Assembly: GCF_002845745.1 (NCBI RefSeq)
Contig: NZ_PIUM01000034.1
Span: 1 to 64,000, forward strand
Reading direction: 5' to 3'
DNA: 64,000 nt
DNA from: Telmatospirillum siberiense
GTDB taxonomy: Bacteria > Pseudomonadota > Alphaproteobacteria > Rhodospirillales > Magnetospirillaceae
Shown here piece by piece: positions 18,221 to 43,171 of the stretch (positions are counted from its first letter, which is position 1; each line of letters begins with the position of its first letter). Under the pieces are notes generated by a model that saw only the letters and a program-made list of their open reading frames with translations, was not told the origin of the DNA and did not search any database. The position numbers and the translations under genes were made by a program.

Positions 18221-20254
18221 TTATGCGGGCTGCGCGGGGATCGCCGTTTCCGTCCATAGTCTCCGATCGGGGGCGATCGGCCGGAATGCATGGCGCTGGG
18301 CCAGCTTCTCCTGCCACCACGCCTGGTAATCCTTGACGGTCTGGATCTCCTCGCGCTCGTAGTCTTGCCGACAGCCCAACTCGTGATAGGCGTCGAGATT
18401 GGTCAGGTCGGGGCGTGGCAGCGTACCCGCCTGCAAGTCGGACCACATGCCCTTGTACAGCTTTTCCAATTCGCCGACGAGAAGGGGGGTGTCGAACAAC
18501 ACGCAGGAATCCCGTCCGGCGAGAAGCCGTTCCCGATAGCCCTGCAGCGTCGCCTTGTTTCTGCCGAGCGCGACGGCGCGGTCGACATATTCCTCGGGGG
18601 AGACGCAGATCAATTCGGGCATTCCGGCGGCATTGAGCAGGCTGCCGCAGACCCGCGAGGCGAAGGAACGTCCGCTCAGGGTCAGCATAGGAACGCCCAT
18701 CCACAAGGCGTCCGAAGCCGTCGTATGGGCACCATAGGGCGAGGTGTCGAGGAACAGGTCGGCCAGCGGATAACGGGCCAGATGATCGGCGTTCGCCTTC
18801 TTTTCGGCGAAGATCAACCGCTCGGGGGCGATACCGCGCTGGCTGGCGAAGGCGCGCAGATTTCCACGGGCGGTCTCGGTGCTGTCGAGCAGCCAGAGAA
18901 CGCTTCCCGGAACCCTGTCCAGGATCGTCAGCCAGCGTTCGAAGGTGAACCGCGTGATCTTGTGCGTGCCATTGAAGCTGCAATAGACCATCGCATCCTC
19001 GGGAAGATGGGCTTCCTGGCGCGACGGCGTATTGGGGGAGACGAGGCGCTTGCGGTCGTTAGGCTGGTAGCAGGGCAGGCGGACCACTTTTTCGGAATAG
19101 TAGATTTCGTTCTCCGGCGGAACGATCCAATCGTCGGCGATGATGTAGTGGTGATAGGGGCTCGCCATGCTGCCGGGAAAGCCCAGCCAATTGACGATGA
19201 TCGGCGCCGGACGCAGGGACAGAAGCTTGGTGCGGCCGTCCCTGGTGTACCCGTTGACGTCGACCAGGATCTGGATTCCGTCGTCGGCGATCCGGCGGGC
19301 GGCGGTGGCATCATCCAGATGGCTGATCGGAATCCAGTGGTCGACAGAGGATTTAATGCGTTCCTGCATGGGCTGCTCAGCCTGCGGTCCGCAATAATAG
19401 GCATAGACTTCGACCGCCTGCCGGTCGTGCAATCCGAAAACCTCGGCCATCAGATAGCCGATGGCATGTTCGCGCAAATCCGAAGACAAATAGCCGATGC
19501 GCAGGGGTTCCGACGGACGGCGTTCCCTTGCCGCCCAATGGGATCCGACGACCCCGGCCGCGGGGATGCCCACGTCGCGCCGGTTATAGTTCCAGTTGGT
19601 GGCCAACTGCATTATCGGATCATCGGTATAGACCGAGATGGAAAGCGGCGAGATGCCCGCCATCAGCGTTTCCCGGTCCACCCGGTCCCAGGGCGAGACG
19701 ATCGGCCATTTGCACTGGCGTTGGCGCAATGCGATGTAATGTTGAATGGCTTCCGGCTGCTCCCGGTCGATCTCGATGCTTTGGCGAAGCATGATTTCCG
19801 CCGGATCGTCCTGGTTGCCGCCTTCGAGAACCCGCGCCATCTGATTGAGCGCGATGGTCTTGTGGGCAATGGCGCCGCCATTGATCGCGGACAGTTTGTC
19901 CACGGCCGCGGACCACTGACGGACCGCCTTGTCGGCTGCCCCTTGCCGTTCGTAAACCCGGCCGAGATTGATATGGGAGGGTATGAATTCAGGATTATGC
20001 GCGACCGAGCGTTCAAGCTTGTCGGCCGCTCCCGCCAGATCGTTCGTGTCCATGAGGGCCACGCCGAAATTGAAGAGGACCGCGTAAAGAAGCGGATCAT
20101 CCTGATTGTGCTTAAGCCAGGTTTCGTAAAGCGAGACGGCGCCGGCCAAGCCATCCGTGGCTTTCAGTACTTCCACCGTCCGGGCTAACTCGACGACGCT
20201 GAGATTGCGCTTTTCCGCGCGTTTCAGCATGGACGCCAGGATCTCACTCCCCAT
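18221..20254 (-). CDS. TPR-GT41 O-linked GlcNAc transferase/SPINDLY-family glycosyltransferase
   Basis: A 677-residue cytosolic glycosyltransferase of the OGT/SPINDLY (GT41) family. Residues ~30-190 form TPR-like helices (PEFIPSHINLGRVYERQG...). Residues ~250-650 are the GT-B catalytic part: RIGYLSSDLREHAIGYL (His263), APIIVNWLGFPGSMAS (349-364), FNGTHKITRF (Lys432, equivalent in position to the UDP-contacting Lys of human OGT), and LDTSPYGAHTTASDALWMG (His510-Thr-Thr and Asp515), the family nucleotide-sugar signature. GAGAG lies 6 nt before the ATG. It starts 21 bp after the stop of the giant Thr/Ser-rich protein on the same strand, which suggests that protein as its acceptor (inference). 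Donor sugar (GlcNAc, Glc or Fuc) cannot be read from sequence. Confidence 0.93.
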   Translation of the reverse strand: MGSEILASMLKRAEKRNLSVVELARTVEVLKATDGLAGAVSLYETWLKHNQDDPLLYAVLFNFGVALMDTNDLAGAADKLERSVAHNPEFIPSHINLGRVYERQGAADKAVRQWSAAVDKLSAINGGAIAHKTIALNQMARVLEGGNQDDPAEIMLRQSIEIDREQPEAIQHYIALRQRQCKWPIVSPWDRVDRETLMAGISPLSISVYTDDPIMQLATNWNYNRRDVGIPAAGVVGSHWAARERRPSEPLRIGYLSSDLREHAIGYLMAEVFGLHDRQAVEVYAYYCGPQAEQPMQERIKSSVDHWIPISHLDDATAARRIADDGIQILVDVNGYTRDGRTKLLSLRPAPIIVNWLGFPGSMASPYHHYIIADDWIVPPENEIYYSEKVVRLPCYQPNDRKRLVSPNTPSRQEAHLPEDAMVYCSFNGTHKITRFTFERWLTILDRVPGSVLWLLDSTETARGNLRAFASQRGIAPERLIFAEKKANADHLARYPLADLFLDTSPYGAHTTASDALWMGVPMLTLSGRSFASRVCGSLLNAAGMPELICVSPEEYVDRAVALGRNKATLQGYRERLLAGRDSCVLFDTPLLVGELEKLYKGMWSDLQAGTLPRPDLTNLDAYHELGCRQDYEREEIQTVKDYQAWWQEKLAQRHAFRPIAPDRRLWTETAIPAQPA

Positions 20255-20275
20255 GATTTTCTCTCAAGTGCAAGA

Positions 20276-23200
20276 TTATGATGCGGCGGCCTGCACAGCG
20301 GCAAGCTGAACAGCGCTCATACTATTTAATTGGGTGGTTGTAAACGCGTCGATCTGCGTGACATTCAAGGCGTCAAGCTGGGTTACCGTCAACTCGCTGA
20401 TGATCGTCGTGGTCAATCCGCTGATCTGGGTCGTGGTCAATCCGCTCATCTGACCGGGCGTCAGTATCGATACCTCTTCCTCGGTCAGCGCGGCGAGCTG
20501 GGTTACCGTCAATCCGCCGACCTGGATGGCGTTCCCCAGGGCATCCACCGTCATTCCGCCGATCTGGGTCGAGGTCAGGGCGGCGAATTGCGTCGTCGTC
20601 AGGGCCTGTATTTCCGCGGTGGTGAGGTTGCTGATCTGGGTCAGCGTCAACGCGGCGATCTGGGTCGTGCTCAACGCCTCGATCTGGCTCGCGCTCAAAG
20701 CGCGGAGCTGGGTGCGAACCAGCTCGCCAAGCTGGGTCACGGTCAGTTCCTGAATTTCCGTATTGGTCAGATAGCCGATTTCGGTCACGGTCAGGCCGCC
20801 CAACTGTGTCGCCGTCAGGCCGCTGATCTGGGTCAGCGTCATCGATTCGATTTCCGTCTCGGTGAGACCCGCGATCGCCGTCGCCGACAAGGCGCCCATC
20901 TGGGTAGAGGTCAGCGCGGAGAACTGGGTGGCGGTCAGGCTGGCGATCTGGACCGACGTCAATCCGCTGATTCCTGTCGCGGACAGAGCGCCGATCTCGG
21001 TGGTGGTGAGGCTGGCGATCTCGGTGCTGGTCAAAGCCGCAATTCCCGTCGCCGAGAGACCGCTGAACTGGGTAACGGTGAGGGCGGCGATTTCGGTGGC
21101 CGTAAGGCTGCTGATCTCGGTGGAGGTCAGGGCGCCGATCTGCGTGGCCGTCAAGCCGGCGATCTGCGTCAGATTGAGGGTCGTGATCTGATCCGTGGTC
21201 AGGCCGGAAATTCCGTCGGACGACAAGGCTCCGATCTGTGTCGACGTCATGCTGTTGATCTGGGTCGTCGTCAGAGCGCCGACCTCGGTGCTGGTCAGGG
21301 CGCTGAGCTGCGTGGTGGTGAGCGCTGCCAGATCGGTGGTGCTGAGATTGGCGATCTGCGTGGTCGTCAGCGCGCGAATCTCGGTGTAGGTCAACCCGGC
21401 GATCTGGGTGGTGGTGAGGGCGGCGAGTTCGGTGATGGTCAGCCCGGCGACCGCCGTGGTCGACAGGGCGCCGATCTGTGTCGACGTCAGTCCCTTGAGC
21501 TGAGTGGTGGTGAGCGTGGCGATCTGCGTATCGGCCAAACCGGCGAGCGCCGTGGTCGATAGCGAGCCGATCTGCGTCCAGGTCAACGCTCCCAACTGCG
21601 TCGAGGTCAGTTCGGAAAGCTCGGTCGAACTCAACGCCTTCACCTGGGTGGTGGTCAGCTTGGACATTTCGGTGGTGGTCAGCCCACTGATCGCCGAGGA
21701 ACTCAATGCGGCGATCTCGGAGGTCGTCAGCCCGCTCAGCTGATCGGTGGTCAGATTGGTCATCTGGGTGGCGGTCAAGCCGCTGACGCCATCCGTGGAC
21801 AGTGCCGCGATTTGGGTCGAGCGCAGAACGGAGATCTGAGAGGTGGTCAGTGCCGCGACTTGGGTGCCGGCCAGCCCGGCCAGCCCGGTGTTGGAGATGG
21901 CGCCGATCTGCGTCGATGTCAGGCTGGCGATCTGAGTGGCGCTGAGGCCGCTGATGCCGCTCGTCGACAAGGCCGCCATTTGCTGGGTGGTGAGGCCGGC
22001 GAGCTGGGTGGTCGAGAGCGCCGCCACTTCCGTGGCGGTCAGTCCGCCGATACCCGTGGTGGAGAGCGCCGCCAGCTCGGTAGAGGTCAGGCTGGCGATT
22101 TGAGTGGCGGTCAGTCCGCTGACGCCGGTGGAGGACAGTGCCGCGATCTGCGTCGCCGCCAGGGAGGCGATCTGCGTAGAGGTCAGAGCGCCGACTTGCG
22201 TGGCGACCAGTTCGCCGATCTGGGTGGTGTTGAATCCGGCCAGCTCGGTGCTGGTCATGTCTTTGATCTGCGTGACCGTCAGGGCGCCCATCTGCGTGGC
22301 GGTCAGGGCGTGCATCTGGATGGTCGAGAGGGCCGCCAGTTGGGTATCGGTCAGCGCCGCGATGCCCGTGGTGGACAGCGCCGCCATCTGGGTCGACTTC
22401 AGAATGCCGAGTTGGGTGGTGGAAAGCACCGCCACCTGCGTATCGCGTAGAGCGGCCATTTCGGTGGCGGTGAAAGCCGACAACTGGGTGGTGGTCAGGC
22501 CACTGATTTCGGTGGTCGACAGCGATTGGATCTGTGTCGCCGTCAGTCCGGCGATTTGGGTGGTGGTCAGGCCGCTGATGGTCGTGGCCGATAGCGCCGC
22601 AAGCTGATCGGTACTCAGGGCACCCAGTTCCGTCGCCGTCAGAGCCGCGATTTGCGTCGATGTCAGACTGGCGATCTGTGTGGCGGTCAGGCCGCTGACG
22701 CCGGTGGTCGACAGGGCGGCGATCTGCGTGTTCGCCAGGGCGGCGATCTGTGTGGTGGTCAAGGCCGCCACCTGCGTGTCGGTCAGGCCGCTGATTTCCG
22801 TGGTCGTCAGCGACCCTATTTCGGTGGCGTTCAGGCTGTGGATCTGGGCGACGGAGAGGGCGCCGACCTGCCTGGTGGTCAGAGCGTGCAGCTGGGTATC
22901 CGTCAAGGCCTGGAGCTGGGTCGTCGTCAGGCCGCTGATGCCGGTGGTCGAGATGGCGGCCATCTGGGTCGCCGACAGAGTGTCGATCTGGGTGGTGGTG
23001 AGCGCCGCCACCTGCGTATCGGTCAGGGCGCCGATTTCCGTGGTGGTGAGCGCCGATATTTCGGTGGTGGTCAAGCCGGCCAACTGGGTGGAGGTCAGGG
23101 CGGCGATCTGGGTGGCGGTCAAGGTCTTGACCTGGGTGGTGGTCAGCGAGACGAGCTGAGTGGTGCTCATGCTGCTGATCTGATCGGAACTCAGCGCGTT

Positions 23201-26200
23201 GAGTTCCGTCTGCGTCAGGGCGCGGAGCTGGGTGGAGGTCAGCGTGGCCAGTTGATTGGCGCTGATGCCGCTGATGGCGGTGGTGGACAGCGCGGCGACC
23301 TGCGTTGCCGTCAGGGCGGCGAGTTGCGTCGTGGACAGCGCGGCGAGTTGCGTGTCGACCAGCCCGCTGATGCCGGTGGTGGTGAGCGCCGAAATCTCGG
23401 TGGTGGTCAGGGCGGCGAGCTGATTGACGGAAAGAGTGCCGACCTGGGTTGCCGTCAGCCCCTTTATCTGGGTCGAGGTGAGCGCCGTGATTTCGGCTGT
23501 CGTCAGGCCTCCGATGGCCGTTACCGACAGGGCGCCGACCTGCGTCGAGGTCAGGGTGGCGAACTGGGTGGCGGTGAATGCCGCGATCTGGGTATCGACC
23601 AGTCCATTGAGTTCGGTGGTCGTCAGCGACTGGATCTGGGTTATCGTCAATCCGCCCAGCTCGGTGGTGGTCAGGGCGCTGAGTTCCGTTGCCGTCAATC
23701 CCTGGATCTGGGTGGTCGTCAGCAGTCCGATCTGCGTCGAGGTCAGCGATGCCAGTTGTGTGGCGGTAAGAGCCGCCATCTGCGTGGCGGTGATCGCATT
23801 GAGTTGCGTCGTGGTCAGCGCCTGCAACTGTGTCGTGCTGAGTCCGCTGATGCCGGTGGTCGACAGGGCCGACATCTGATCGACCGTCAAGACCGCAAGC
23901 TGGGCGGGTGTCAGCGCTTCGACCTGGGTTGCGGTCAGGCCGCTGAGTTCGGTGGTGGTCAGGACGCCGATCTGTGTCGTGGTCAGACTGGCGAGTTGGG
24001 TGGTGGTGAAGGCGCCGACTTCGGTCGCCGTCAATGCCCCCAACTGCGTGGTGGTCAGTTTGGCGATCTGCGTGGCGCTCAAGCCATCGATGCCGGTGGT
24101 GGACAGCGCCGCCATCTGCGTGGCGGTCAGGGCTCCAAGCTGCGCATCCGACAGTTCCGAGACCTGCGTATCCGTCAATGCCGCGATCTCGGTGGTGGTG
24201 AGCGCGGCGATCTCGGTGGTGGTGAGCGCGGCCAGTTCCGTCGAGGTCAAAGCGGCAATCTGGGTGGTGGTGAGTTGTCTGACCTGAGTGGTGGTGAGCG
24301 AAGCCAGTTGGGTCGAGCTCAACTTTCCAAGCTGGTCCGAACTCAAAGCTGCCAGTTCCGTCCCGCTCAAGGCGCGGAGCTGCGTCGTCGTCAGATTGGC
24401 GAGTTGCGTCTGGTTGAGGCCGCTGATGCCGGCGGTGGACAGCGCGGCGATCTGCGTCGTCGCCATCGCGGCGATCTGCGTGGTGGTGAGCGCGGCCACC
24501 TGGGTGTCGACCAGTCCGCCGATACCGGTCGAGGTCATGGCGGAAATTTCGGTGGTGGTCAGGGCGGCGATCTGGGCGGTGGTCAGGGTGCCGACCTGGG
24601 TCGCCGTCAGGCCTTTCATCTGGGTGGTGGACAGCTCGGCGACTTCGGTGGCGCTCAAGCCGCCGATAGCCGTGGTGGACAGGGCGCCGATCTGCGTCGA
24701 AGAGAATGCCGCCAACTGGGTGGCGGAGAACACGGCGATCTGGGTGTCGTCGAGGCCGGCCAGTTCGGTGGTGGTGAGCGACTGGATTTGGGTAACCGTC
24801 AAACCTCCGATTTCGGTGGAGGTGAGAGCCGCCAATTCAGAGGTCGTCAGGCTTTGAATCTGCGTTGTGGTCAGAAGTCCGATCTGCGTTGCCGTCAGCG
24901 AGGCGAGCTGGGTGTTGGACAGCGCCGAGATCTGCGTCGTGGTGAGAGCGTTGAGCTGTGTCGTGGTCAGCGCCCGCAATTGCGTCGTGCTGAGGCCGTT
25001 GATGGCGGTGGTCGACAAGGCCGCCACCTGATCGGCCGAGAAGGCGGCCATCTGGGTCGCGGTCAGGGCTTCGATCTGTGTTTCGGCAAGACCGGCAAGT
25101 TCGGCGGTGGTGAGAACCTTGATCTGCGTCGTGGTGAGCGCGGCGACCTGGGTGGTGGTCAACGAGCCAAGATCGGTGGCGGTCAGCGCCGCCAGTTGGG
25201 TCGTGCTCAGCGCCGCCAGTTGGGTCGTGCTCAGGCCGTTGACGCCAGTGGTTGACAGCGCCGCGACCTGCGTCGTCGCCAGAACGGCGAGCTGCGTGGT
25301 CGACAGCGCCGCGATCTGCGTGTCGGTCAGAGCCCCGATTTCCGTCGCCGTCAGCGCCGCGATCTCGGTGGTCGTCAGTCCGGCGATTTGAGTCGAGCTT
25401 AAGGTGGCGATCTGCGTGGTCGACAGCGAGGCAACCTGGGTGGTTGTCAAAGAGGTCAGTTCGGTCGTCGTCAGGCTGCCCAACTGGTCCGAATCCAGGC
25501 TGTTGAGTTCGGTCGCCGTCAGGGCGCGAAGCTGGGTCGTGCTGAGGGATTGGAGTTGGGTGGTGCTGAGCCCCGTGATCGCGGTGGTGGTCAGCGCGGC
25601 GATCTGCGTCGAGGCCAGAACGCCGAGTTCCGTCGTGGTCAGGGTGGAGATCTGAGTGTCCGCCAAGCCGCTGATCGCGGTGGTGGTCAGCGCGGCGAGC
25701 TCGGTGGTGGTCAGGGAATCGACTTGGGCGGCGGTCAGCGCGCCGATCTGCGAAGACGTCAGCCCCTTAATCTGCGTGGTGGTGAGCGACGACAGTTCCG
25801 TGGCGGTCAATCCACCGATCGCCGAGGTCGAAAGGGCGCCGATCTGGGTCGATGTCAGGGCGGAAAGTTGCGTGGAACTCAATCCGGCGATTTGTGTATC
25901 GACCAGGCTGGCGATCTGGGTGGTGGTCAGCGCACCCAGCTGGGTCGAGGTCAACGCCGACAATTCGGTGGTGTTCAGCGACGCCAGTTGGGTGGTGCTA
26001 AACCCGGAGATCTGGGTGGTGGTGAGCGAAGCCAGATCGGTTGCGGTCAGGCTGCCCAGTTGGCCGCCGTCCAGCGCGCTCAGTTGGGTCGACGTCAAAT
26101 TGTGAAGCTGGGTGGTGGTCAGGGCGGTCAACTGGTCGGTGGTCAGTCCGCCGATCGCCGTGGTCGACAGCGCCGCCAGCTGGGTCGCCGACAGGGAGGC

Positions 26201-29200
26201 GATCTGGGTGGTGGTCAATGCCGCCATCTGCGTATCGGTCAGGGCGGCGATCTGCTTGGTCGACAGTTCCGAAAGCGCCGTGCTCGACAGTCCGCTGATC
26301 TGCGTGCTGGTCATTGCCGCCAGTTCGGCCGCAGTCAGGCCTTCCATCTGAGTGGTGGAAAGCGCGGCCAGTTCGGTGGCGGTCAATCCGCCGACGGCCG
26401 TGGCGGACAATGCTCCGATCTGCGTCGAGGTCAGGGTGGCGAGCTGGGTGGTGGACAGCAATTGCACTTGCGTGTCCGTCAGGCTCGCCATCTGAGTGGA
26501 CGTCAGAGCTCCCAATTGAGTGACGGTGAGCGACGCGATCTCGGTGGTGTTCAGCGCGGCGATCTGGGACGTCGTCAGCCCGGCGATTTGCGAGGTGTAA
26601 AGGGAGGCGAAGTTCGTCGTCGTCAGATTGGCAAGCTGTTCGGACGTCAGGCTGCCGATTTCCGTGGCGGTCAGTCCGTGCAGCTGAACGGTGGTCAACG
26701 CGGCCATCTGCGTATCGGTCAGACCGCCGATAGCCGTCGTTGACAGGGCGCCCAATTGGGTGGCGGTCAGCACGGCGAGCTGGGTGGTGTCCAGCGCGGC
26801 GACTTCCGTATCCGTCAATCCCTTCATTTGCGTCGTCGTTAGGGCGGCGAGATCCGTGTTCGTCAGGGAAACGAACTGGCTTGTCGTCATGGCGCCCAGT
26901 TGCGTGATGGTCAGGGCCTTCACCTGGGTGGTGGTGAAGGCCGCCAGTTCGGTGGCGGTCAAGCCGCCGATGGCCGTGGTGGAGAGCGCCGCGACCTGTG
27001 TCGCCGTCAAGCCGGAAAGCTGCGTGGTGGAAAGTGATGCAATCTGCGAATCGACCAGATTGCCGATCTGCGTCGCCGTCAGCGCGGCCAGTTGCGTCGA
27101 GGACAATGCCGACAGCTCGGTCGTGGTCAAGGTGGAGATCTGAGTCGCCGTCAGGCCCTTGATCTGCGTCGCGGTCAGGTTGGCGAGTTCGTCCGCCGTC
27201 AAATTGCCGAGTTGATCGGCGCTCAAGGCGCCGATTTCCGTGGCGGTCAGGGTGGAAAGCTGGGTGGCGGTGAGCGCGGCCAGTTGCGTGGCGGTCAGAC
27301 CGCTGATGCCGGCTGCGGAGAGGGCGCTGAACTGGGTCGAGGTGAAGGCGGCGATTTGCGTAACCGTCAGGCTAGCCACCTGCGTGTTGGTCAGCCCCTT
27401 CACCTGCGTCGTGGTCAACGCCGCCATTTCCGTGCTGGTCAGGGAGGCGAGCTGGTCGGAGGTCAATGCTCCGACCTGCGTCGCGGTCAGGCCTGAGATC
27501 TGGGTGGTGGTCAGCGCCGCCAATTCGGTCGCGGTCAGTCCTCCGACCGCCGTGGTGGACAGGGCGCCGATCTGCGTCGAGCTGAAGCCGGCGAGCTGGG
27601 TGATGGTGAGCGCGGCCATCTGAGTGTCGATCAGGCTGCCGACTTGTGTGGCCGTCAACGCTCCCAACTGGGTGGAGGAGAGCGAGGAGAGTTCCGTGGC
27701 GGTGAGAGATCCCACCTGCTTGGTCGTCAGTCCCTTGACCTGCGTGGTGGTGAGCGCCGCCAGATCCGCGGCCGTCAGATCGCTGAGCTGCCCGGTGCTC
27801 AAGGCGCCGATCTGCGTTGCCGTCAAACCGCGCAATTGCGTGGTGGAGAGGGAGGCCACCTGCGTATCGGTCAGTCCGCCGATTTCCGTGGTGGTGAGCG
27901 CCGCCAGTTGGGTGGCCGTCAGTACACTGAGCTGTGTGGTGGTAAGCTGACCGATCTGAGTGGCGGTCAGTCCGGCGAGCTGCGTCGTTGAGAACTTCGC
28001 GAGTTCGGTCGTCGTCAGGCCGCTGAGCTGATCGGATGTCAAACTCGCCAGTTCAGTGACCGTTAACCCCTTGATCTGCGTGGTGGTGAGCGCCGCGATT
28101 TCGGTTGCGGTCAGCGAACCGATGCCGGTGGTCGACAATGCACTGATTTGCGTGGGCGACAAGGCTCCCAATTGAGTGGAGCTGAGCGCCGCTACCTGGG
28201 TGTCTCCCAGGCTGGCAACCTGTGTGGTGGTCAGCGCGGCGATCTCAGTCGTGGTCAGGACGGTCAACTGATCGGTGGTCAGGGACGACACTTGCGTGGT
28301 CGTCAGCCCCTTGATTTGGGTGGTGGTGAGGGCTGCGAGCTCAGTGGTCGTCAAACTGCCCAATTGGTCGGTACTGAGAGCGGCGATCTGTGTTGACGTC
28401 AGACTGTAGATTTGCGTGGCCGTCAAGGCGGCGATCTGAGTGGTTGCCAATCCGCTGATCGCCGTTGCCGAGAGAGCTCCCAGTTCCGTTACGGTCATGT
28501 CGGCGATCTGGGTGGTGGTCATGGCGGCGATCTGGGCCGCGGTCATTCCCTTGATCTGGGTGGCGGTGAGGGCGGCGAGATTGCTGGTACTGATCTCGCT
28601 GAGTTGCGTCGCCGTCATGCTGCCGATTTGTGTCGCGGTCAATCCTCTGATTTGCGCGGTGGTGAGGACCGCCAGCTCGGTGGCGGTCAGGCCGCCGATC
28701 GCCGTGGTGGTCAGCGACGCCATTTGTGTCGAGGTCAGACCGGAAAACTGATCGGTCGTCAGGGCAGCAATCTGGGTGTCGGTCAGGCTGGCGATCTGGG
28801 TGGCTGTCATCGAACGCAACTGCGTCGAGGTCAGGGCGGCCAGTTCGCTGCTGGAGAGCGAGGCTACCTGTGTTGCGGTCAGTCCTCTCAGCTGGGTGGT
28901 GGTCAGCGCGGTCAGATCGGTGGAACTCAGATCGCTGAGCTGGGTGATGCTGAACGCCGCCATTTGGGTAGCGGTCACGCCGCGCAATTGCGTCGTCGTC
29001 AATGCCGCGATCTGGCTATCGCTGAGACCGCCAATTTCCGCGCTGGTCAGCGCCGAAATCTGGGTCGCCGTAAGCGCGGCGAGTTGGGTGGTCGACAGTG
29101 CCGCGATCTGGGTCGCCGTGAATCCCTTGATCTGGGTGGCGGAAAGCAGCGCCATCTCGGTGGTGGTCAGGCAACTGATCTGATCGGTGCTGAGTACGCC

Positions 29201-32200
29201 GATCTGCGTCGATGTCAGTCCTCGGATCTGGGTGGTGGAGAGCGCCGAGATCTCGGTGGTCGTCAATCCGCCGATAGCGGTTACGCTGAGCCAGCTGACC
29301 TGGGTCGATGTCATGGCGGCCAGTTGGGCGGCCGAGAGATTTACTATCTGGTCGTCGGTCAGATAGTGGGCCTGTGTGGAGGTCAGGGCGGCAATTTGGG
29401 TGGTGGAGAGCGCCGCCAATTCAGTATCGGACAATGCCGCGACCTGAGTGGTGGTGAGGCCCTTGAGCTGGGTGGTGGAGAGCGCGGCCAAATCGGATGT
29501 CGTCATGGCGGCCAACTGGTCGCTACTGAGCGCTCCGATCTGTGTCGAGGTCAATCCTCGAACCTGGGTGGTGGAGAGCGTGGCGATCTCGGTCATCGCC
29601 AGCCCGCCAAGGGCGGTCACGTTAAGCCAGCTGATCTGGGTCGATGTCATCGAGGCCAGTTGGTCGAGTGAGAGAGCCGCCAACTGATTGCTGCTCAGAT
29701 AGTGGGCCTGCGTGTTGGTCAGGGCGGCAATCTGGGTGGTGGAGAGCGCCGCAATGTCAGCCACTGACAACGCCGTCACCTGGGTCGATGTAATGCCCTT
29801 GAGCTGGGTGGTGGAGAGCGCGGCGATCTCGGTCGTCGTCAGTCCGCCGATGGCGGTTACGCTAAGCCAGCTCACTTGGGTCGACGTCATCGCGGCCAAT
29901 TGGGCGAGCGAGAGAGCCGCTATCTGGTTGTCGCTCAGATAGTGGGTCTGCGTGTTGGTCAGGGCGGCAATCTGGGTGGTGGTCAGTGCCGCCAATGCGG
30001 TCTCGGACAGCGCCGCCACCTGAGTGGTGGTGAGTCCTTTAACCTGGGTAGTGGAGAGTGCGGCCAGCTCGCTCGTCGTCATGGCGGCGAGCTGGTCCGT
30101 GCTCATCGCGCCGATCTCCGTCGCGGTCAGCCGGCTGAGAACCGTCGTCGTCAGTTGTGCGATCTGATCGGCGGTCAACCCCTTGATCGCCGTGGTCGTC
30201 AAGGCTCCCATCTGTGTCGCCGTGAGGGTGGCAATCTGGGTGGTGTTGAGTGACGCTACCTGGGTAGCGGTAAGGCCTTTGACTTGAGTAGAGGTCAGAA
30301 TCGCCAGTTCCGTCGAGGTCATGGCGGCCAACTGATCGCTGGTGAGCGCGCTGATCAGGGTCGAGGTCAAGCCCTTGACCTGGGTGGTGGTGAGGGCGGC
30401 GACCTCGGTGGTGGTCAGCCCACCGATGGCGGTTACGCTGAGCCAGCTAACCTGGGTCGCCGATATTGCACCTATCTGGGCGAGCGAGAGAGACGCCATC
30501 TGGCTGTCGGACAGATAGTGGACCTGCGTCGTGGTCAGGGCGGTAATCTGGGTGGTGGTGAGCGCCGCCAGTTCGTCCTGGGACAGCGCCGCCACCTGAG
30601 TGGTGGTGAGCCCTTTGAGTTCGGTGGTGGTGAGCGCCGCCAGCAACGTCGCAGACATGCTGGATAGCTGATCCCCGCTCATCGAACCCAATTGGGTGGC
30701 GGTCAACCGGCTGATTTCCGTGGTGGTCAGTTGGGCGATTTGGGTTGCCGTCAAACCGTCGATGCCCGTGGTTGTCATCGCGGCCAACTGGGTCGCGTTG
30801 AGGGCGCCTATCTGGTCCAGTGACAAAGCCGAGACCTGGGTGTCGACCAGCCCTTTGATCTGTGTGGCTGTCAGGGAGGAAAGCTCGGTCGTGGTCAAGG
30901 CCGAGATCTGCTCAACCGATAGAACCTTGATCTGAGTTGAGGTCAATCCGGCAAGCTGAGTAGTGGTGAGCTGGGTGATCTCGGTGGTCGTCAGTCCGCC
31001 GATGGCGGTTACGCTGAGCCAGCTGACCTGGGTCGACGTCATCGCTGCCAATTGGGCAGACGAGAGACTTGTCATCTGGTTGTCGGTCAGATAGTGGACC
31101 TGCGTCGAGGTCATGGCGGCGATCTGGGTGGTGGTGAGAGCCGCCAGTTCGTCCTCGGACAATGACGCCACCTGAGTGGTGGTGAGTCCCTTGATCTGTG
31201 TGGCTGAGAGCATGGTCAGCTCGGTTGTCGTCATGGCGGCGAGCTGGTCGCTGCCGAGCGCGCCGACCTGCGTCGAGGTTAAGCCCTTGACTTGGGTGGT
31301 GGTGAGGGCGGCGATCTCGGTGGAGGTCAGCCCGCCGATGGCGGTCACGCTGAACCAGCTGATCTGGGTCGACGTCATCGCGGCCAGTTGGGCGAGTGAC
31401 AGAGTCGCCAGTTGGTTGTTGGTCAGATAGTGGGCCTGCGTGTTGGTCAGGGCGGCAATCTGGGTGGTGGCGAGCGCCGCAATATCGGTCACGGACAATG
31501 CCGCCACCTGAGTAGTGGTGAGTCCCTGGATCTGAGTGGTGGTAAGCGCGGTGACCTCTGCCGTCGTCAACCCACCAAGGGCGGAGGTCGACAAAGCTCC
31601 GATCTGCGTCGAGGAAAGTGCCGCAAACTGTGTTAGCGTCAAAGCGGCGACCTGGGTATCGGTAAGCTTCGAAACCTGGGTGGCGGTCAGGGCGCCCAGT
31701 TGCGTGGTCGTCAGGATGCCGATCTCGGTCAGGGTCAGGTCGGAGATCTGCGTCGCGGTCAGGCCGATGATCTGCGACGTCGAAATCGTCGACAGGTTGA
31801 GCGCGGAAAGGCAGCTTAGCTGGCCGTCGCTGAACGCAGCCAACTCGGTGGCCGTCAAGCCGAGAACCTGGGTGGTGGTCAGCGCGGCGATCTGCGTCGA
31901 GGAAAGGCCGCTGATGCCGGTGTTGCTCAGAGCTCCCATCTGGGTGGCGGTGAGTGCCGCGATCTGGCTGAGCGACAATTCGGCGATCTGGGTATCGGTC
32001 AGTCCCTTGATCTGCGTCGTCGTCAAAGACGAAATGTCCGTCGTCGTCAGGACGTCGATCTGATCTCCGGTCAGATTTTTGACCTGCGCGGCGGTCAGTC
32101 CGCCCAGTTGGGTGGTGGTGAGTTGCGTGAGCAGGGTGGTCGTCAGGTTCGAGATTTGCGTCACGGTCATCGCCGCGATCTGCGTCGAGGTCAGGGAGGC

Positions 32201-32905
32201 GATCTCGGTCGCATCGAGCGAAGCCAGCTCGGTGGCGGTCAATCCTTGGATTTGCGAGCCCGACAACGACGCGATTTCGGTCGTCGTCATGGCGTCGATC
32301 TGGGTCATCGCCAGCGCGCTCATCTGTGACGACGTCAAGCCGCTCATCTGGGTCGAGGTCAGGGCGGCGAACTGGGTCGCCGACAGATAGGAAAGCTGGG
32401 TGGTGGTCATCGCTCTGACCTGCGTCGAGGCCAGCCCGCCGATCTGGGTGGTGGTCAGGGCCTGCAGCTCGGTCGAGCTCAAGCCTTGCATTTGCGTGGC
32501 GGTCAAGGCTCCGATCTGCGTCGGTGTCAGGGCGGCGAATTCCGCGGGGGTCAGGGCCTGCAGCTCGTCCGCGGTCAGCCCCTTGATCTGCAAGGTGGAG
32601 AGGGAGGCGACCTCTTCGGCCCCCAAGGCCTCGACCTGAGCGTCGATAAGAACCGAAAGCTGTGTGGCGGTGAACACCATCTGGCTGACGGTCAACGCAT
32701 CGATCTGCGTCGTCGTCAGAGCCGCCACCTGGGTGGTCGTCAACGCCTGGAGCTGAGTCGTGTTCAGCTCTTCGATTTCCGTGACGGTAAAAGCGGCCAC
32801 TTGGTCAGTGGACAGGGATTTGATGTCGGCGGCCGTCAGCGATTTGATGGCCGTCGACGTCAGTCCGGCGATATCGGCAACGCTGAGAGATGACACGGAC
32901 GACAC
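20276..32905 (-). CDS. Giant 4,209-residue Thr/Ser-rich octapeptide-repeat protein
   Basis: An uninterrupted 4,209-residue reading frame starting at GTG 32905 with GGGAGG 9 nt upstream. After MSSVSS the protein is a head-to-tail octad array, consensus L-(T/S)-x-T-(Q/E/D)-(I/L/V/M)-x-(A/G/S). Its length fits about 523 octads plus one heptad (residues 71-77), one six-residue insertion (GNAIQV, near 4,120) and a VQAAAS tail. Cys is nearly absent and charge is low. Landmark octads with Ala/Gly at position 5 (LSTTAIGG, LSTTGISG) impose a 192-residue super-period. There is no signal peptide, transmembrane segment, RTX nonapeptide, LPxTG or other sorting motif that I recognise. Synonymous codons differ between repeats while residues are kept, indicating protein-level selection. 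Function unknown; a surface or extracellular fibre O-glycosylated by the adjacent GT41 enzyme is an inference. Confidence 0.93.
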   Translation of the reverse strand: MSSVSSLSVADIAGLTSTAIKSLTAADIKSLSTDQVAAFTVTEIEELNTTQLQALTTTQVAALTTTQIDALTVSQMVFTATQLSVLIDAQVEALGAEEVASLSTLQIKGLTADELQALTPAEFAALTPTQIGALTATQMQGLSSTELQALTTTQIGGLASTQVRAMTTTQLSYLSATQFAALTSTQMSGLTSSQMSALAMTQIDAMTTTEIASLSGSQIQGLTATELASLDATEIASLTSTQIAAMTVTQISNLTTTLLTQLTTTQLGGLTAAQVKNLTGDQIDVLTTTDISSLTTTQIKGLTDTQIAELSLSQIAALTATQMGALSNTGISGLSSTQIAALTTTQVLGLTATELAAFSDGQLSCLSALNLSTISTSQIIGLTATQISDLTLTEIGILTTTQLGALTATQVSKLTDTQVAALTLTQFAALSSTQIGALSTSALGGLTTAEVTALTTTQIQGLTTTQVAALSVTDIAALATTQIAALTNTQAHYLTNNQLATLSLAQLAAMTSTQISWFSVTAIGGLTSTEIAALTTTQVKGLTSTQVGALGSDQLAAMTTTELTMLSATQIKGLTTTQVASLSEDELAALTTTQIAAMTSTQVHYLTDNQMTSLSSAQLAAMTSTQVSWLSVTAIGGLTTTEITQLTTTQLAGLTSTQIKVLSVEQISALTTTELSSLTATQIKGLVDTQVSALSLDQIGALNATQLAAMTTTGIDGLTATQIAQLTTTEISRLTATQLGSMSGDQLSSMSATLLAALTTTELKGLTTTQVAALSQDELAALTTTQITALTTTQVHYLSDSQMASLSLAQIGAISATQVSWLSVTAIGGLTTTEVAALTTTQVKGLTSTLISALTSDQLAAMTSTELAILTSTQVKGLTATQVASLNTTQIATLTATQMGALTTTAIKGLTADQIAQLTTTVLSRLTATEIGAMSTDQLAAMTTSELAALSTTQVKGLTTTQVAALSETALAALTTTQIAALTNTQTHYLSDNQIAALSLAQLAAMTSTQVSWLSVTAIGGLTTTEIAALSTTQLKGITSTQVTALSVADIAALSTTQIAALTNTQAHYLSSNQLAALSLDQLASMTSTQISWLNVTALGGLAMTEIATLSTTQVRGLTSTQIGALSSDQLAAMTTSDLAALSTTQLKGLTTTQVAALSDTELAALSTTQIAALTSTQAHYLTDDQIVNLSAAQLAAMTSTQVSWLSVTAIGGLTTTEISALSTTQIRGLTSTQIGVLSTDQISCLTTTEMALLSATQIKGFTATQIAALSTTQLAALTATQISALTSAEIGGLSDSQIAALTTTQLRGVTATQMAAFSITQLSDLSSTDLTALTTTQLRGLTATQVASLSSSELAALTSTQLRSMTATQIASLTDTQIAALTTDQFSGLTSTQMASLTTTAIGGLTATELAVLTTAQIRGLTATQIGSMTATQLSEISTSNLAALTATQIKGMTAAQIAAMTTTQIADMTVTELGALSATAISGLATTQIAALTATQIYSLTSTQIAALSTDQLGSLTTTELAALTTTQIKGLTTTQVSSLTTDQLTVLTTTEIAALTTTQVASLGDTQVAALSSTQLGALSPTQISALSTTGIGSLTATEIAALTTTQIKGLTVTELASLTSDQLSGLTTTELAKFSTTQLAGLTATQIGQLTTTQLSVLTATQLAALTTTEIGGLTDTQVASLSTTQLRGLTATQIGALSTGQLSDLTAADLAALTTTQVKGLTTKQVGSLTATELSSLSSTQLGALTATQVGSLIDTQMAALTITQLAGFSSTQIGALSTTAVGGLTATELAALTTTQISGLTATQVGALTSDQLASLTSTEMAALTTTQVKGLTNTQVASLTVTQIAAFTSTQFSALSAAGISGLTATQLAALTATQLSTLTATEIGALSADQLGNLTADELANLTATQIKGLTATQISTLTTTELSALSSTQLAALTATQIGNLVDSQIASLSTTQLSGLTATQVAALSTTAIGGLTATELAAFTTTQVKALTITQLGAMTTSQFVSLTNTDLAALTTTQMKGLTDTEVAALDTTQLAVLTATQLGALSTTAIGGLTDTQMAALTTVQLHGLTATEIGSLTSEQLANLTTTNFASLYTSQIAGLTTSQIAALNTTEIASLTVTQLGALTSTQMASLTDTQVQLLSTTQLATLTSTQIGALSATAVGGLTATELAALSTTQMEGLTAAELAAMTSTQISGLSSTALSELSTKQIAALTDTQMAALTTTQIASLSATQLAALSTTAIGGLTTDQLTALTTTQLHNLTSTQLSALDGGQLGSLTATDLASLTTTQISGFSTTQLASLNTTELSALTSTQLGALTTTQIASLVDTQIAGLSSTQLSALTSTQIGALSTSAIGGLTATELSSLTTTQIKGLTSSQIGALTAAQVDSLTTTELAALTTTAISGLADTQISTLTTTELGVLASTQIAALTTTAITGLSTTQLQSLSTTQLRALTATELNSLDSDQLGSLTTTELTSLTTTQVASLSTTQIATLSSTQIAGLTTTEIAALTATEIGALTDTQIAALSTTQLAVLATTQVAALSTTGVNGLSTTQLAALSTTQLAALTATDLGSLTTTQVAALTTTQIKVLTTAELAGLAETQIEALTATQMAAFSADQVAALSTTAINGLSTTQLRALTTTQLNALTTTQISALSNTQLASLTATQIGLLTTTQIQSLTTSELAALTSTEIGGLTVTQIQSLTTTELAGLDDTQIAVFSATQLAAFSSTQIGALSTTAIGGLSATEVAELSTTQMKGLTATQVGTLTTAQIAALTTTEISAMTSTGIGGLVDTQVAALTTTQIAAMATTQIAALSTAGISGLNQTQLANLTTTQLRALSGTELAALSSDQLGKLSSTQLASLTTTQVRQLTTTQIAALTSTELAALTTTEIAALTTTEIAALTDTQVSELSDAQLGALTATQMAALSTTGIDGLSATQIAKLTTTQLGALTATEVGAFTTTQLASLTTTQIGVLTTTELSGLTATQVEALTPAQLAVLTVDQMSALSTTGISGLSTTQLQALTTTQLNAITATQMAALTATQLASLTSTQIGLLTTTQIQGLTATELSALTTTELGGLTITQIQSLTTTELNGLVDTQIAAFTATQFATLTSTQVGALSVTAIGGLTTAEITALTSTQIKGLTATQVGTLSVNQLAALTTTEISALTTTGISGLVDTQLAALSTTQLAALTATQVAALSTTAISGISANQLATLTSTQLRALTQTELNALSSDQISSMSTTQLVSLTTTQVKTLTATQIAALTSTQLAGLTTTEISALTTTEIGALTDTQVAALTTTQIDTLSATQMAAISTTGISGLTTTQLQALTDTQLHALTTRQVGALSVAQIHSLNATEIGSLTTTEISGLTDTQVAALTTTQIAALANTQIAALSTTGVSGLTATQIASLTSTQIAALTATELGALSTDQLAALSATTISGLTTTQIAGLTATQIQSLSTTEISGLTTTQLSAFTATEMAALRDTQVAVLSTTQLGILKSTQMAALSTTGIAALTDTQLAALSTIQMHALTATQMGALTVTQIKDMTSTELAGFNTTQIGELVATQVGALTSTQIASLAATQIAALSSTGVSGLTATQIASLTSTELAALSTTGIGGLTATEVAALSTTQLAGLTTQQMAALSTSGISGLSATQIASLTSTQIGAISNTGLAGLAGTQVAALTTSQISVLRSTQIAALSTDGVSGLTATQMTNLTTDQLSGLTTSEIAALSSSAISGLTTTEMSKLTTTQVKALSSTELSELTSTQLGALTWTQIGSLSTTALAGLADTQIATLTTTQLKGLTSTQIGALSTTAVAGLTITELAALTTTQIAGLTYTEIRALTTTQIANLSTTDLAALTTTQLSALTSTEVGALTTTQINSMTSTQIGALSSDGISGLTTDQITTLNLTQIAGLTATQIGALTSTEISSLTATEIAALTVTQFSGLSATGIAALTSTEIASLTTTEIGALSATGISGLTSVQIASLTATQFSALTSTQMGALSATAIAGLTETEIESMTLTQISGLTATQLGGLTVTEIGYLTNTEIQELTVTQLGELVRTQLRALSASQIEALSTTQIAALTLTQISNLTTAEIQALTTTQFAALTSTQIGGMTVDALGNAIQVGGLTVTQLAALTEEEVSILTPGQMSGLTTTQISGLTTTIISELTVTQLDALNVTQIDAFTTTQLNSMSAVQLAAVQAAAS
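20987..31930 (-). repeat. Nineteen consecutive 576-bp (24-octad) super-repeats
   Basis: Within the giant gene, landmark octads begin at residues 326, 438, 518, 630, 710, 822, 902, 1014, 1094, 1206, 1286, 1398 and so on to 3974. Spacing alternates strictly 14 and 10 octads (112 and 80 residues). From 326 to 3974 this is 3,648 residues = 19 x 192, that is 10,944 bp = 19 x 576, without a phase slip. I checked the phase on the DNA: leucines 494, 1182 and 3974 fall at the predicted codons 31424-31426, 29360-29362 and 20984-20986. Confidence 0.88.
29363..31426 (-). repeat. HY...SW cassette repeats in the N-terminal third of the giant protein
   Basis: Residues 494-1181 hold five blocks of 14, 24, 24, 10 and 14 octads. 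Each is preceded by an octad ending in His-Tyr and opens with L(T/S)xxQ...AQ(L/I)(A/G)A, an (M/I)-T/S-x-T-Q-(V/I)-S-W octad and then the landmark (F/L)(S/N)VTA(I/L)GG. A sixth copy opens at residue 1182. His, Tyr and Trp are almost absent elsewhere in the protein, so this cassette marks a distinct, more recently homogenised zone. Confidence 0.85.
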
Positions 32906-38941: not shown

Positions 38942-39250
38942 CATCGTTGGGAATTTTCCAAAGATGGGCGGGATTTGAGCGTGGCCGTGCCGGCCGCGCT
39001 GCTTCTCAACGACAACGGGCGGATCTATGACGCGGCGCTCGCCGGGGTCGGCTTGGCTTACGGCGTCGAGGCCCGCGCGGCGCCTTATCTGGCGTCCGGC
39101 GCCCTGGTGCGCGTCCTCGACGATTGGTGCCCGACCTATCCGGGCTTTTTCCTCTATTATCCGTCCCGCAGCCATTTACGGCCGGCGCTGCGGGCCCTGA
39201 TCGATTTCATCAGGGACAATGCGGCAGGCCATCCGTCAGTCCGACGGTGA
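38942..39250 (+). pseudogene. C-terminal remnant of a LysR-family regulator
   Basis: About 100 codons match only the end of a LysR substrate-binding domain: [18 protein letters not shown], then [46 protein letters not shown] and LRPALRALIDFIRD. The DNA-binding N-terminus and most of the sensor domain are absent; upstream sequence is the aldo/keto reductase start region. The remnant shares its last 41 bp with the 3' end of the GH31 gene. It is best read as a deleted regulator of the adjacent reductase. Confidence 0.82.
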
Positions 39251-41636
39251 GAACCCGCCAACCATCCCGGTATCCTTCGGCAAGGAGAACGCCTTGCTTC
39301 AGATGGATGGATCTGCTTTCCGAGCGCGGCAAAAGGACGTCGATCCGCGACGCCGTCGGGGGGACCTTCCCGGCGGCGGCGATATCGATGACGAGATCCC
39401 GGACGGACGTTTCGAGCGCGATGTCCCAGGTCCCATAAAGTCCCTGCCGGTAATCCCCGCCGTCGCCGTCGTCTTCGAAAATCGTCGTCGCGAAGCGTCC
39501 CGGCGCGGCGGGCGGAAATATGGCGAAGCCACGCTCGTCGGCCGGTTGGTTGAAGTGCTGCTCGGCGAGGTTGAGGGGCAGGATCGCGCCGGCCCGGACC
39601 AGCAGGGGCGGGCGATCCCAGGGGGCCGCCAATTCGATCTCCCGGCCGCCGACGAAATATTGGCCGGTCCAGTAATCGTACCAGTCGGCGCCGGCGGGCA
39701 GGTAGACCCGTCTCGACAGGACGCCCGGCTCCACCACCGGTGCGACCAGCAGGTTCGCCCCCAGCAGCATGTCGTCGTTTTCCTCGAAACATCTGGGATC
39801 GTCCGGAAAGTCGTGGAAGGTCGGACGGATCATCGGTTCGTAGCGGCTGTGTGAGCGCCACAACAGGTCGTAAAGATAGGGAACCAGACGGGCGCGGAAT
39901 TTGATCAGGTCGCGGATGAAAGGGGTGAGCGCCGGATACATCCAGGGTTCGTTGGCCGTTTGATCGTCGTTCCAGGAATGAATGGAGAAACGCGGGAGGA
40001 AAATGCCGAACTGCACCCAGCGCAGGAACAGTTCCGGATCGGGGCGGGGACCGGCGAATCCGCCGATGTCGTGGCCGAGGTTGGAGACGCCGGACAATGC
40101 CAGCCCGCAGCCCATGCGGACGTTGTATTTCAACGTTTCCCAGCTCGTGTAATTGTCACCCGACCAGGTCTGCACATAGCGCTGCATGCCGGCGGCGCCC
40201 GAGCGCGAGATCAGAAATGGCCGCTTGTCCGGCGCGTGGATCTCCTGGGCCCGCTTCGATGTCTGGAGCATCAGCAGGGTATGCAAGGGTTTGGCGTTGC
40301 GGGCCGGTTGGGCTGTGCCGAAACCGTCGATCAGCGCGTCGTCGCTCCAAATTTCGAATTCGTTGTTGTCGTTCCAGGTGGAGGCGATGCCGTAGTCGAG
40401 CAGCGCGTCCGTCACCCTGGAGCGCCACCAGGCGATGGTCTTGGGATTGGTGAAGTCGAGATAGGCGCCGGTCTCGTCCCAGAACTGTACTGCGGTCGGC
40501 GCGCCGTCTCGGCCGTGGACGAACAGTCCCTCCCGCTCGGCTTCCGCGAACCGGGGATGATCCTTGAGCAGGCATGGCTTGATGTTGGCGCACAGGCGGA
40601 CGCCGTGATCCAGATAGCGCTGGGCAAAACCTTGGGGATCCGGGAATTTGTCGCGGTTCCAGTGGAACACGTAGCGCTTTCCGGCGATCGAGGTGTAGCC
40701 CGACGACAGATGAAAGGATGTGCAGAGGATATCGTGCGTCCGGCAATTCTCCAGAAACTCTTCCATCCGCTCCTGGGCGTTCGGCGCGTCGGTATAGCTC
40801 ATGGTCGAGCCGGAATATCCCAGGCTCCATTTCGGCATGAAGGCAGGCCGGCCGGTCAGCCAGGTGAAGCGGCGCGTGATGTCGGCGGGCTCGGTTCCAC
40901 CGATCACGTAGTAGTCGAGATCGCCATGCTCGGCGATGAAATGGCGGTACAGCCCGTGATAATTGTCGAGTTCGCGGCCCATGTCGAAGGTGCAGTCGGC
41001 CAGCGTGTCGTAGAAGAAGCCCAGGGGAACCCGGCTGGCGCTTTTCCAGACCATGTAAAAGGGGATGTGCTTATAAAGCGGATCCGTGGTTCGCGCGCTG
41101 TATCCCATCGCATCGATATTGGTCATGCGATAGCTCTGGCCGCAGCGGTCGGCTGCGCCGGCCCGCTCGCCCAGGCCGAAATATTTTTCGTCGGTTTCAC
41201 GTTTCAGATAGTGGTACACGCGACGGTCCCACCAGCCGAAATTGTAGCTTTGCGTTTCCCTGTCCGCGGCGGCCGGGCGCCATGCTCCGTCGAGGAAACT
41301 TTCCCACCGGCAGAAGAATCCCTTCAAGACGATCGTGAGGCGCAGGCAGGCGGTGGACAGGATCAGCCGGTCGGGATGTTCGTCGACGGAGTAGGAAGGC
41401 AGCGTGAATCCGGAAAGGTCGAAGCGGTCCCGGCCTTCCGTCGGAACATCGTCTCCGCCGGGCGCGATGGCCCAGGTGCGCGGAAAGCGGAGTTCGGAAA
41501 ACGGCAGGACCATCACCCGGATGATGTCGTTCTCCAGCGGAAAGACATGCGCGGTATGCCCTTCGGCGCAGCTCAGCACGAGATGGTTGCCTGTCTTTTC
41601 CGTCAGCGAAAAAAGGGGGGCGGTGGCTAGGGTCAT
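39210..41636 (-). CDS. Glycoside hydrolase family 31 (alpha-glucosidase/alpha-xylosidase)
   Basis: An 808-residue GH31 enzyme. The nucleophile motif is STWNDNNEFE (WNDxNE type), the acid/base lies in TWSGDNYTSWE, and RPFLISRSGAAGMQRYVQTW and GHDIGGF are typical catalytic-barrel blocks. An N-terminal beta-sandwich (residues 1-240) and distal C-terminal beta domains are present. There is no signal peptide, so it acts on an imported alpha-linked sugar in the cytosol. It follows the MFS gene by 42 bp on the same strand, and both are probably controlled by the divergent LacI regulator. The exact glycoside cannot be assigned. Confidence 0.93.
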   Translation of the reverse strand: MTLATAPLFSLTEKTGNHLVLSCAEGHTAHVFPLENDIIRVMVLPFSELRFPRTWAIAPGGDDVPTEGRDRFDLSGFTLPSYSVDEHPDRLILSTACLRLTIVLKGFFCRWESFLDGAWRPAAADRETQSYNFGWWDRRVYHYLKRETDEKYFGLGERAGAADRCGQSYRMTNIDAMGYSARTTDPLYKHIPFYMVWKSASRVPLGFFYDTLADCTFDMGRELDNYHGLYRHFIAEHGDLDYYVIGGTEPADITRRFTWLTGRPAFMPKWSLGYSGSTMSYTDAPNAQERMEEFLENCRTHDILCTSFHLSSGYTSIAGKRYVFHWNRDKFPDPQGFAQRYLDHGVRLCANIKPCLLKDHPRFAEAEREGLFVHGRDGAPTAVQFWDETGAYLDFTNPKTIAWWRSRVTDALLDYGIASTWNDNNEFEIWSDDALIDGFGTAQPARNAKPLHTLLMLQTSKRAQEIHAPDKRPFLISRSGAAGMQRYVQTWSGDNYTSWETLKYNVRMGCGLALSGVSNLGHDIGGFAGPRPDPELFLRWVQFGIFLPRFSIHSWNDDQTANEPWMYPALTPFIRDLIKFRARLVPYLYDLLWRSHSRYEPMIRPTFHDFPDDPRCFEENDDMLLGANLLVAPVVEPGVLSRRVYLPAGADWYDYWTGQYFVGGREIELAAPWDRPPLLVRAGAILPLNLAEQHFNQPADERGFAIFPPAAPGRFATTIFEDDGDGGDYRQGLYGTWDIALETSVRDLVIDIAAAGKVPPTASRIDVLLPRSESRSIHLKQGVLLAEGYRDGWRVLTVGLTDGLPHCP

Positions 41637-41678
41637 CTTGAATGTCGTTCCTGTTTTTCGGTGGGCTGGCGTCGGTTT

Positions 41679-42962: not shown

Positions 42963-43040
42963 CGTTTCCTCGTCTTGTCGTTGTGTCGACAGCCGCTGGT
43001 CGATAGTCGGCTATCGGGGCCTGACGCTTCGGAAAGTATC

Positions 43041-43058
43041 TTGGCAAACGTTTGCCAA
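43041..43058. promoter_or_regulatory. Perfect 18-bp LacI-type operator
   Basis: TTGGCAAACGTTTGCCAA is an exact palindrome with a central CG and AAACGTTT core, the form typical for LacI/GalR-family operators. It lies 79 bp upstream of the MFS ATG and 114 bp upstream of the lacI-type start, between the divergent genes, so it can control both. Confidence 0.85.
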
Positions 43059-43171
43059 AGCTGTCAATGGGCCGATATCGGGAAAGTCGCCATCCAGTCC
43101 TGGCGTCTTGCCGGTATCGCGGTTTATTCAATAATCGGTGATAAGGCGCATGACGCCCTGTAACGACATGG

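Follow-up and report, generated by a model that had tools for sequence, protein, structure and literature searches.

The octad–GT41 locus

The window, i.e., the whole 64,000-nucleotide stretch of Telmatospirillum siberiense DNA under analysis, encodes on its reverse strand a giant repeat protein and a TPR-bearing glycosyltransferase (GT) of family GT41. The initial annotation placed both open reading frames on the same strand, with 21 bp between the stop codon of the first and the ATG of the second, and these positions proved exact:

20276..32905, reverse strand: giant octad (ALTTAQ) repeat protein, 4209 aa, the proposed acceptor (GTG start; Pfam)
20255..20275, reverse strand: gap of 21 bp between the octad stop codon and the GT ATG (sequence)
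20261–20265, reverse strand: GAGAG, likely ribosome-binding site of the GT gene (sequence)
18221..20254, reverse strand: TPR-GT41 glycosyltransferase, 677 aa, the proposed enzyme (ATG start; Pfam, motifs)
19721..20080, reverse strand: TPR region of the GT, about residues 59–178 (Pfam TPR matches; limits approximate)
18455..19525, reverse strand: GT41 catalytic region, about residues 244–600 (Pfam and motifs; limits approximate)

The GTG start of the octad gene is consistent with the frames of its orthologues, which open with (V)VSSxSS. Near the pair lie metX, metW, a class I lysyl-tRNA synthetase gene and a GH31 set. No glycan-specific genes were found among the scanned neighbours in the window, nor any HlyB/HlyD-type genes beside the pair. 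At 39210–44212, a GH31 glycosidase, an MFS transporter and a LacI-type regulator adjoin one another, likely as a sugar-use set unrelated to the octad–GT41 finding.

The genome (G000; 6.2 Mb in 81 contigs) holds four further GT41-like matches (25–33% identity) and a second octad gene, C37:7760-14953 on the forward strand (L029), with a Thr-rich product of 2397 aa. No GT41 was found near this gene within C37:1-40000, and its product may be modified in trans or left unmodified. Another giant frame of the same genome, 7454 aa long, contains a TPR-like match at G000:C22:86257-86439.

The giant octad repeat protein

Octads with the consensus LTTTQIAA, about 528 of them in register, fill nearly the whole protein. 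It belongs to the Pfam family PF20080 (ALTTAQ_rpt), which it matches with 1726 bits (cut-off 26.4) in 146 stretches. Shifted against itself, the frame shows residue identities of 0.41 (lag 8) and 0.45 (lag 32); for lags of up to 31 outside the multiples of 8, the values are 0.04–0.13. From position 1 to position 8, the octad columns read L; T or S; T, A or S; T; Q or E; I, L or V; A, G or S; and A, G or S, a pattern that would correspond to an N-cap at position 2 and a short helix, with hydrophobic residues at positions 1 and 6.

Ser and Thr make up 1417 of the 4209 residues. The initial annotation had estimated two or three per octad and on the order of a thousand possible acceptors; averaged over 468 stringently selected octads, the count is 2.7, and positions 2–4 of the 528 octads carry 1206. 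Thr is strongly preferred over Ser at position 4 (411:23) and more weakly at positions 2 (325:150) and 3 (207:90). The 528 octads comprise 439 distinct protein sequences, and those that are identical as protein mostly differ as DNA (LTTTQVAA, for example, occurs in six copies and five DNA versions). The repeat is therefore old and kept at the protein level, without fresh slippage.

Class, motifs and putative donor of the GT41 enzyme

The 677-aa protein matches PF13844 (Glyco_transf_41) with an E-value of 3.7e-85 and 286.7 bits (cut-off 25), and TPR_2 with 28.3 bits (cut-off 27), the combination of a TPR N-terminus and PF13844 that marks the OGT/SPINDLY branch. Residues H263, K432, H491, R494, H510 and D515 are invariant in 26 aligned members of its clade, and we take them to be the equivalents of OGT His498, Lys842, His901, Arg904, His920 and Asp925. 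With a loose regular expression, all three catalytic motifs are found in 32 of the 42 GT frames of the named loci, ten frames missing at least one.

Against solved structures, the clade profile matches OGT at 1e-139, XcOGT at 2e-115 and SPINDLY at 2e-93, and HMW1C-like or N-glucosyltransferase structures weakly, at about 8e-7 to 9e-7. Of the two models offered by the initial annotation, OGT and HMW1C, the former thus stands, on the OGT/SPINDLY (O-linked) side. An HMW1C-type N-glycosyltransferase is ruled out by the NGTferase score (23.8 bits against a cut-off of 1000), by the match of about 9e-7 to HMW1C-like structures and by the presence of TPRs.

The part of PMC10027727 on which we draw names residues of the donor site, with OGT Cys917 at the position of SPINDLY Tyr744. 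Among the 72 clade frames caught by the motif, the equivalent of OGT Arg904 is Arg in all 72; that of Leu866 is Leu in 68 (two have Ile and two were not read); and that of Cys917 is Tyr in 65, the seven with Cys being second copies. Since the OGT-type uridine pair Arg and Leu, as identified in the same part of PMC10027727, is kept, these residues suggest that the donor is a UDP-sugar, possibly one without an N-acetyl group. Tyr at the Cys917 position was dropped as a mark of the clade, as 11 of 16 more distant GT41s also have it. The UDP-glucuronate decarboxylase (UDP-xylose synthase) UXS was likewise considered as a donor marker and is uninformative in the window's family: it is near universal there (50 of 55 genomes) and so does not name the donor.

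Conservation of the pair across genomes

Among 55 genomes of the window's family, PF20080 octads occur in 29 and the GT41 of the window's clade in 25 (threshold at least 679 bits in the family search; next match 408). All 25 lie within the 29, and the clade GT is found in none of the 26 octad-free genomes (Fisher 1e-11, a value that is too good since related genomes are treated as independent). All 25 have an octad gene adjoining the clade GT; in 24 it lies immediately upstream and on the same strand, and in one (G002) downstream. Two tandem clade GTs follow the octad gene in six family genomes, and G001 has two convergent ones. Octads without a main-clade GT are limited to four of the 29 genomes (G005, G006, G008 and G031); in G006, a GT41 of the sister subclade sits between two octad genes, and the octad contig of G008 was left out of the reading. 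In G034, G039, G040, G043, G044 and G047, a further non-clade GT41 lies about 15–19 kb from tandem clade GTs.

When named genomes were scanned with the GT alignment, at least 595 stretches matched, of which at least 586 were confirmed as relatives. In the best 80 of these at least 586 relatives, an octad frame was detected by score at 69, and L152 was added after inspection of its lag-8 signal. With these 80 included and the duplicates L093, L095, L098, L104 and L106 removed, 104 distinct clade loci were counted, and an octad gene is present in the fetched flank at 94. It lies upstream on the same strand at 63 loci (within 300 bp at 62 and within 50 bp at 19), upstream on the opposite strand at 18, downstream on the same strand at 12 and downstream on the opposite strand at one. 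No octad gene was found in the fetched flanks of the remaining ten (L127, L149, L150, L151, L154, L171, L172, L177, L192 and L200), some of them short contigs; UXS is present in L149, L151 and L172, and HlyD in L151.

That the pair persists although gene order varies argues for a functional tie more strongly than a single frozen operon would. The initial annotation had named beforehand the lack of a conserved neighbourhood across homologues as grounds for abandoning its reading; the neighbourhood is conserved in 25 of 25 family genomes and at 94 of 104 loci. The octad–GT41 pair is, thus, a real, conserved two-gene system. The pairing had also been described as dedicated, which holds insofar as it is conserved across genomes and survives rearrangement, and does not hold as a strict one-to-one relation, given the octad gene without a GT41 on C37.

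In a class-wide sample of 289 genomes, octads (E ≤ 1e-6) occur in six and the clade GT in four, all within those six. For the other two (G086 and G174), a 20-kb stretch containing the octad gene was read and no GT41 was found in it. Nor was one found in the sequence read near the octad genes of L231, L234 and L235, or of L227 and L119, two loci cut by a contig end.

Seven clade GT loci (L139, L168, L127, L128, L133, L134 and L138) fall in non-alphaproteobacterial bins, named Marinimicrobia, Verrucomicrobia, Methylacidiphilaceae, Desulfovibrio, Solidesulfovibrio and Polyangiaceae. L139, L134 and L138 nest among alphaproteobacterial GTs in the tree. Such loci represent either transfer of the pair or misbinned contigs.

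Control loci and the enzyme tree

A first control consisted of 24 hand-picked loci, namely 20 of the 78 family-search rows with lower GT41 scores, and the four GT41-like matches of the window's own genome. It left out G006:C86, which lies between octad genes, and one row each of G034, G039, G040, G043, G044 and G047. No octad gene was found at any of the 24. The full control took all 78 lower-scoring rows, in 77 loci, eight of them shorter than 10 kb. An octad gene is present at one of the 77, L118 (the G006:C86 locus), with octads on both sides and a GT of the sister subclade. The comparison of clade loci with the full control gives a Fisher value of 1e-38, which treats related loci as independent and is too good for that reason. 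Chance adjacency is rejected on the basis of the 94 of 104 clade loci with an octad gene, against 0 of 24 and 1 of 77 control loci.

In a quick tree of 89 GT41 rows from 75 loci, rooted at the midpoint only, all 56 octad-linked rows fall inside one group of 68 rows (SH-aLRT 100), composed of a main part of 58 rows and a sister part of 10 (GT41'). The sister part includes the second GT41 of the Azospirillum- and Roseomonas-type loci. Of 22 rows from octad-less loci, 21 lie outside the 68-row group; the exception, L209 (G002), is probably a cut member, because HlyD and HlyB adjoin it and the contig ends there. The octad label changes 11 times on the tree, against a mean of 26.7 when shuffled. 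The nearest relatives of the window GT are found in genomes of the same genus and in bins named Magnetospirillum and Phaeospirillum. The GT belongs to a distinct group of OGT/SPINDLY-type GT41.

Genes linked to the pair

Sugar-nucleotide genes are present at 43 of the 104 clade loci and at none of the 77 control loci. UDP-galactopyranose mutase (GLF) occurs at 30, UXS, which matches the solved enzyme 4gll at 7e-125, at 13, and GalE at eight. Nearly all the mutase loci belong to Rhizobiales, so they are not independent events. Gene names rest on a separate annotation, the first clusters of neighbour genes including antisense artefacts.

Type I secretion system (T1SS) genes are found at 11 of the 104 loci (HlyB at 10, HlyD at 10 and both at nine); in the control, HlyB and HlyD occur at one of 77, the sister-subclade locus L209. 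In L229 and L230, the order is UXS–GT41–GT41'–HlyD–HlyB–octad, within 15 kb. The HlyD of L229 scores above the NCBIfam type I cut-off, and the best match of its HlyB is the HlyB model, below the cut-off. The T1SS genes lie directly before the octad gene in L139, L144, L146, L158 and L168. As a general partner of octads, this T1SS subfamily was not upheld in the 55 family genomes, where 19 of the 29 genomes with octads and 7 of the 26 without have a match at 1e-120; the best match in the window's genome is 38% identical.

A conserved unnamed gene, possibly a transferase, is present at 15 of the 104 loci. Pfam gives only Methyltransf_FA for it, and no match was found in the PDB. Finally, an FkbM methyltransferase occurs at five of the 104.

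Octads as putative acceptors

In 55 GT-linked octad proteins (the longest octad frame of each hand-picked locus), a median of 87% of the octads carry Ser or Thr at position 3 or 4 (range 61–100%). Solo octad genes include both poor types, with shares of 0.47 (L231), 0.46 (L235) and 0.53 (L232, 19 octads), and types as rich as the linked ones, with 0.87 (L029 and L234), as well as 0.85 (L119) and 0.73 (L227), giving a mixed picture in which Ser/Thr richness does not separate linked from solo octads. Rhizobial octads have mostly Ala or Asp, not Thr, at position 4. Thr at that position is thus not upheld as the universal acceptor, and no single acceptor position is universal.

The chain of HeliScrew4 (PDB 9zem) aligns with the octads at 6e-15, a score of the kind that simple repeats inflate, as TAL effector repeats match too. 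Its octads have mostly Pro at position 3 and Glu or Asp at position 4, which means that Thr is not needed there for folding, if the fold is the same. Thr that is dispensable in this way would fit an acceptor role and be no proof of it.

The proposed system and alternative explanations

Taken together, the two genes are probably a single operon and encode a dedicated system of protein O-glycosylation, with the octad protein as its putative substrate. The hyperglycosylation proposed in the initial annotation gains support from the conserved pair, the OGT-type motifs that are kept and the sugar-nucleotide and secretion genes that gather at the loci. The GT would act in the cytosol, its TPR region gripping the newly made octad protein, and would place sugars from a UDP-sugar on Thr and Ser at octad positions 2–4, producing a rod of short helical repeats with a dense sugar coat. 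Where such genes are linked, a second GT41 or another transferase may extend the glycan, with galactose or galactofuranose in rhizobia and with xylose in Caulobacteraceae, Azospirillaceae and Roseomonas. In lineages with linked T1SS genes, the octad protein would then be brought to the surface by type I secretion.

A broader proposal, which we put forward only tentatively, is that hyper-O-glycosylation of this kind could be widespread in Alphaproteobacteria. In the cytosol, a dedicated OGT-type GT41 might coat each rigid rod (about 600–4600 aa; dozens to hundreds of octads, each a short helix) with simple sugars, hundreds to more than 1000 of them (xylose, or galactose with galactofuranose added to it, rather than GlcNAc). 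The rods might then leave the cell, in several lineages through type I secretion, and form mucin-like filaments at its surface.

The octad protein could instead remain cytosolic, serving as a ruler or a scaffold and glycosylated only for solubility, which is rather unlikely but deserves consideration. No signal peptide was seen by eye in the octad frames inspected, and T1SS genes are linked at only the 11 loci described above and show no tie to octads within the window's family, all of which would suit a cytosolic protein. However, T1SS substrates need no N-terminal signal peptide, and the T1SS genes stand between GT and octad gene in two loci and directly before the octad gene in five others. 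The octad arrays begin near the N-terminus and reach the C-terminus, which type I secretion fits where these genes are linked. Moreover, a short octad array lies within a protein bearing a bacterial cadherin-like domain in G174 (L232 7567-10989, forward strand), suggesting an extracellular setting.

An improbable explanation is that the substrate of the GT41 is a different protein, for example flagellin, and that the octad protein serves as a scaffold or regulator or is a partner exported along with it. It would resemble FlmG of Caulobacter, an alphaproteobacterial, cytosolic, TPR-bearing O-glycosyltransferase according to the part of PMC7591256 consulted. Flagellin genes lie in the flank at five of the 104 loci (four from Shinella and one from Phenylobacterium) and FlgE-type genes at three, with a flagellar hook (FlgE-type) gene opening 11–12 bp after the clade GT in L147 (12037-13587) and L102 (16092-17642). 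Nevertheless, the loci are few and those with flagellin mostly from one genus, the 8 of 104 are not clearly above the 2 of 77 in the control, so that the flagellar link is unconvincing, and octad genes are present at 94 of the 104. That the adjacency is incidental, an inherited gene order without a functional tie, is very improbable: metX after the GT is also kept in four loci of the window's genus, but the octad–GT41 pairing has survived inversions and changes of gene order and is found in many families, and the lower-scoring family GT41s pair with octads at one of 77 loci.

If the O-glycosylation system is as proposed, a physiological substrate would be assigned to a clade of bacterial OGT-like enzymes, with genome context naming one target for the whole GT41 clade. 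A role would also be offered for the Pfam ALTTAQ repeat, and the two genes would provide a simple set for making glycan-coated helical rods.

Comparison with known systems

OGT, SPINDLY and XcOGT combine TPRs with a GT41 catalytic part and share motifs with the octad GT. OGT and SPINDLY transfer GlcNAc or fucose to many proteins of the cytosol or nucleus, and we know of no pairing of OGT, SPINDLY or XcOGT with a repeat protein. To our knowledge, natural substrates have been established for few bacterial OGT-like GT41 enzymes. The octad of the giant protein is that of the PF20080 ALTTAQ repeat, and the HeliScrew4 chain aligns with it; we know of no function for PF20080. Among open-licence PMC papers, none was found on ALTTAQ, PF20080 or HeliScrew, nor did any listed title or abstract describe an octad–GT41 pairing.

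In Haemophilus, HMW1C is a cytoplasmic enzyme of the GT41 family that serves the high-molecular-weight exported adhesin HMW1, as the part of PMC3012730 consulted describes. Unlike the octad GT, HMW1C is N-linking and without TPRs, and HMW1 is exported by two-partner secretion. The TPR-bearing N-terminal part of Caulobacter FlmG, a cytoplasmic O-glycosyltransferase, binds the substrate, as stated in the same part of PMC7591256. FlmG differs in its substrate (flagellin), its sugar (pseudaminic acid) and the flagellar export, and the likeness to the octad GT is one of description, not of sequence.

In serine-rich repeat protein (SRRP) systems, a Ser-rich repeat adhesin is O-glycosylated on Ser/Thr, with priming glycosyltransferases and extension enzymes clustered and a dedicated export (PMC6973325, in the part consulted). 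The octad–GT41 pair resembles the Gram-positive SRRP/GtfA/GtfB/accessory Sec arrangement described there in having repeat protein and glycosyltransferase genes together and Ser/Thr as proposed acceptors. It differs in the type of glycosyltransferase, the linked enzyme being a GT41 with TPRs and not a GtfA/GtfB-type priming enzyme, in the repeat and in its hosts, which are mainly Alphaproteobacteria here. SRRP export depends on SecA2/SecY2, whereas the octad system has a T1SS where one is linked. If the proposal is correct, the pair would represent in Gram-negative bacteria what serine-rich repeat adhesin systems are in Gram-positive ones, and the O-glycosylation of its protein might be very dense. 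In summary, the octad–GT41 pair would work like the known systems of a glycosyltransferase plus a giant adhesin, yet it belongs to none of those tested.
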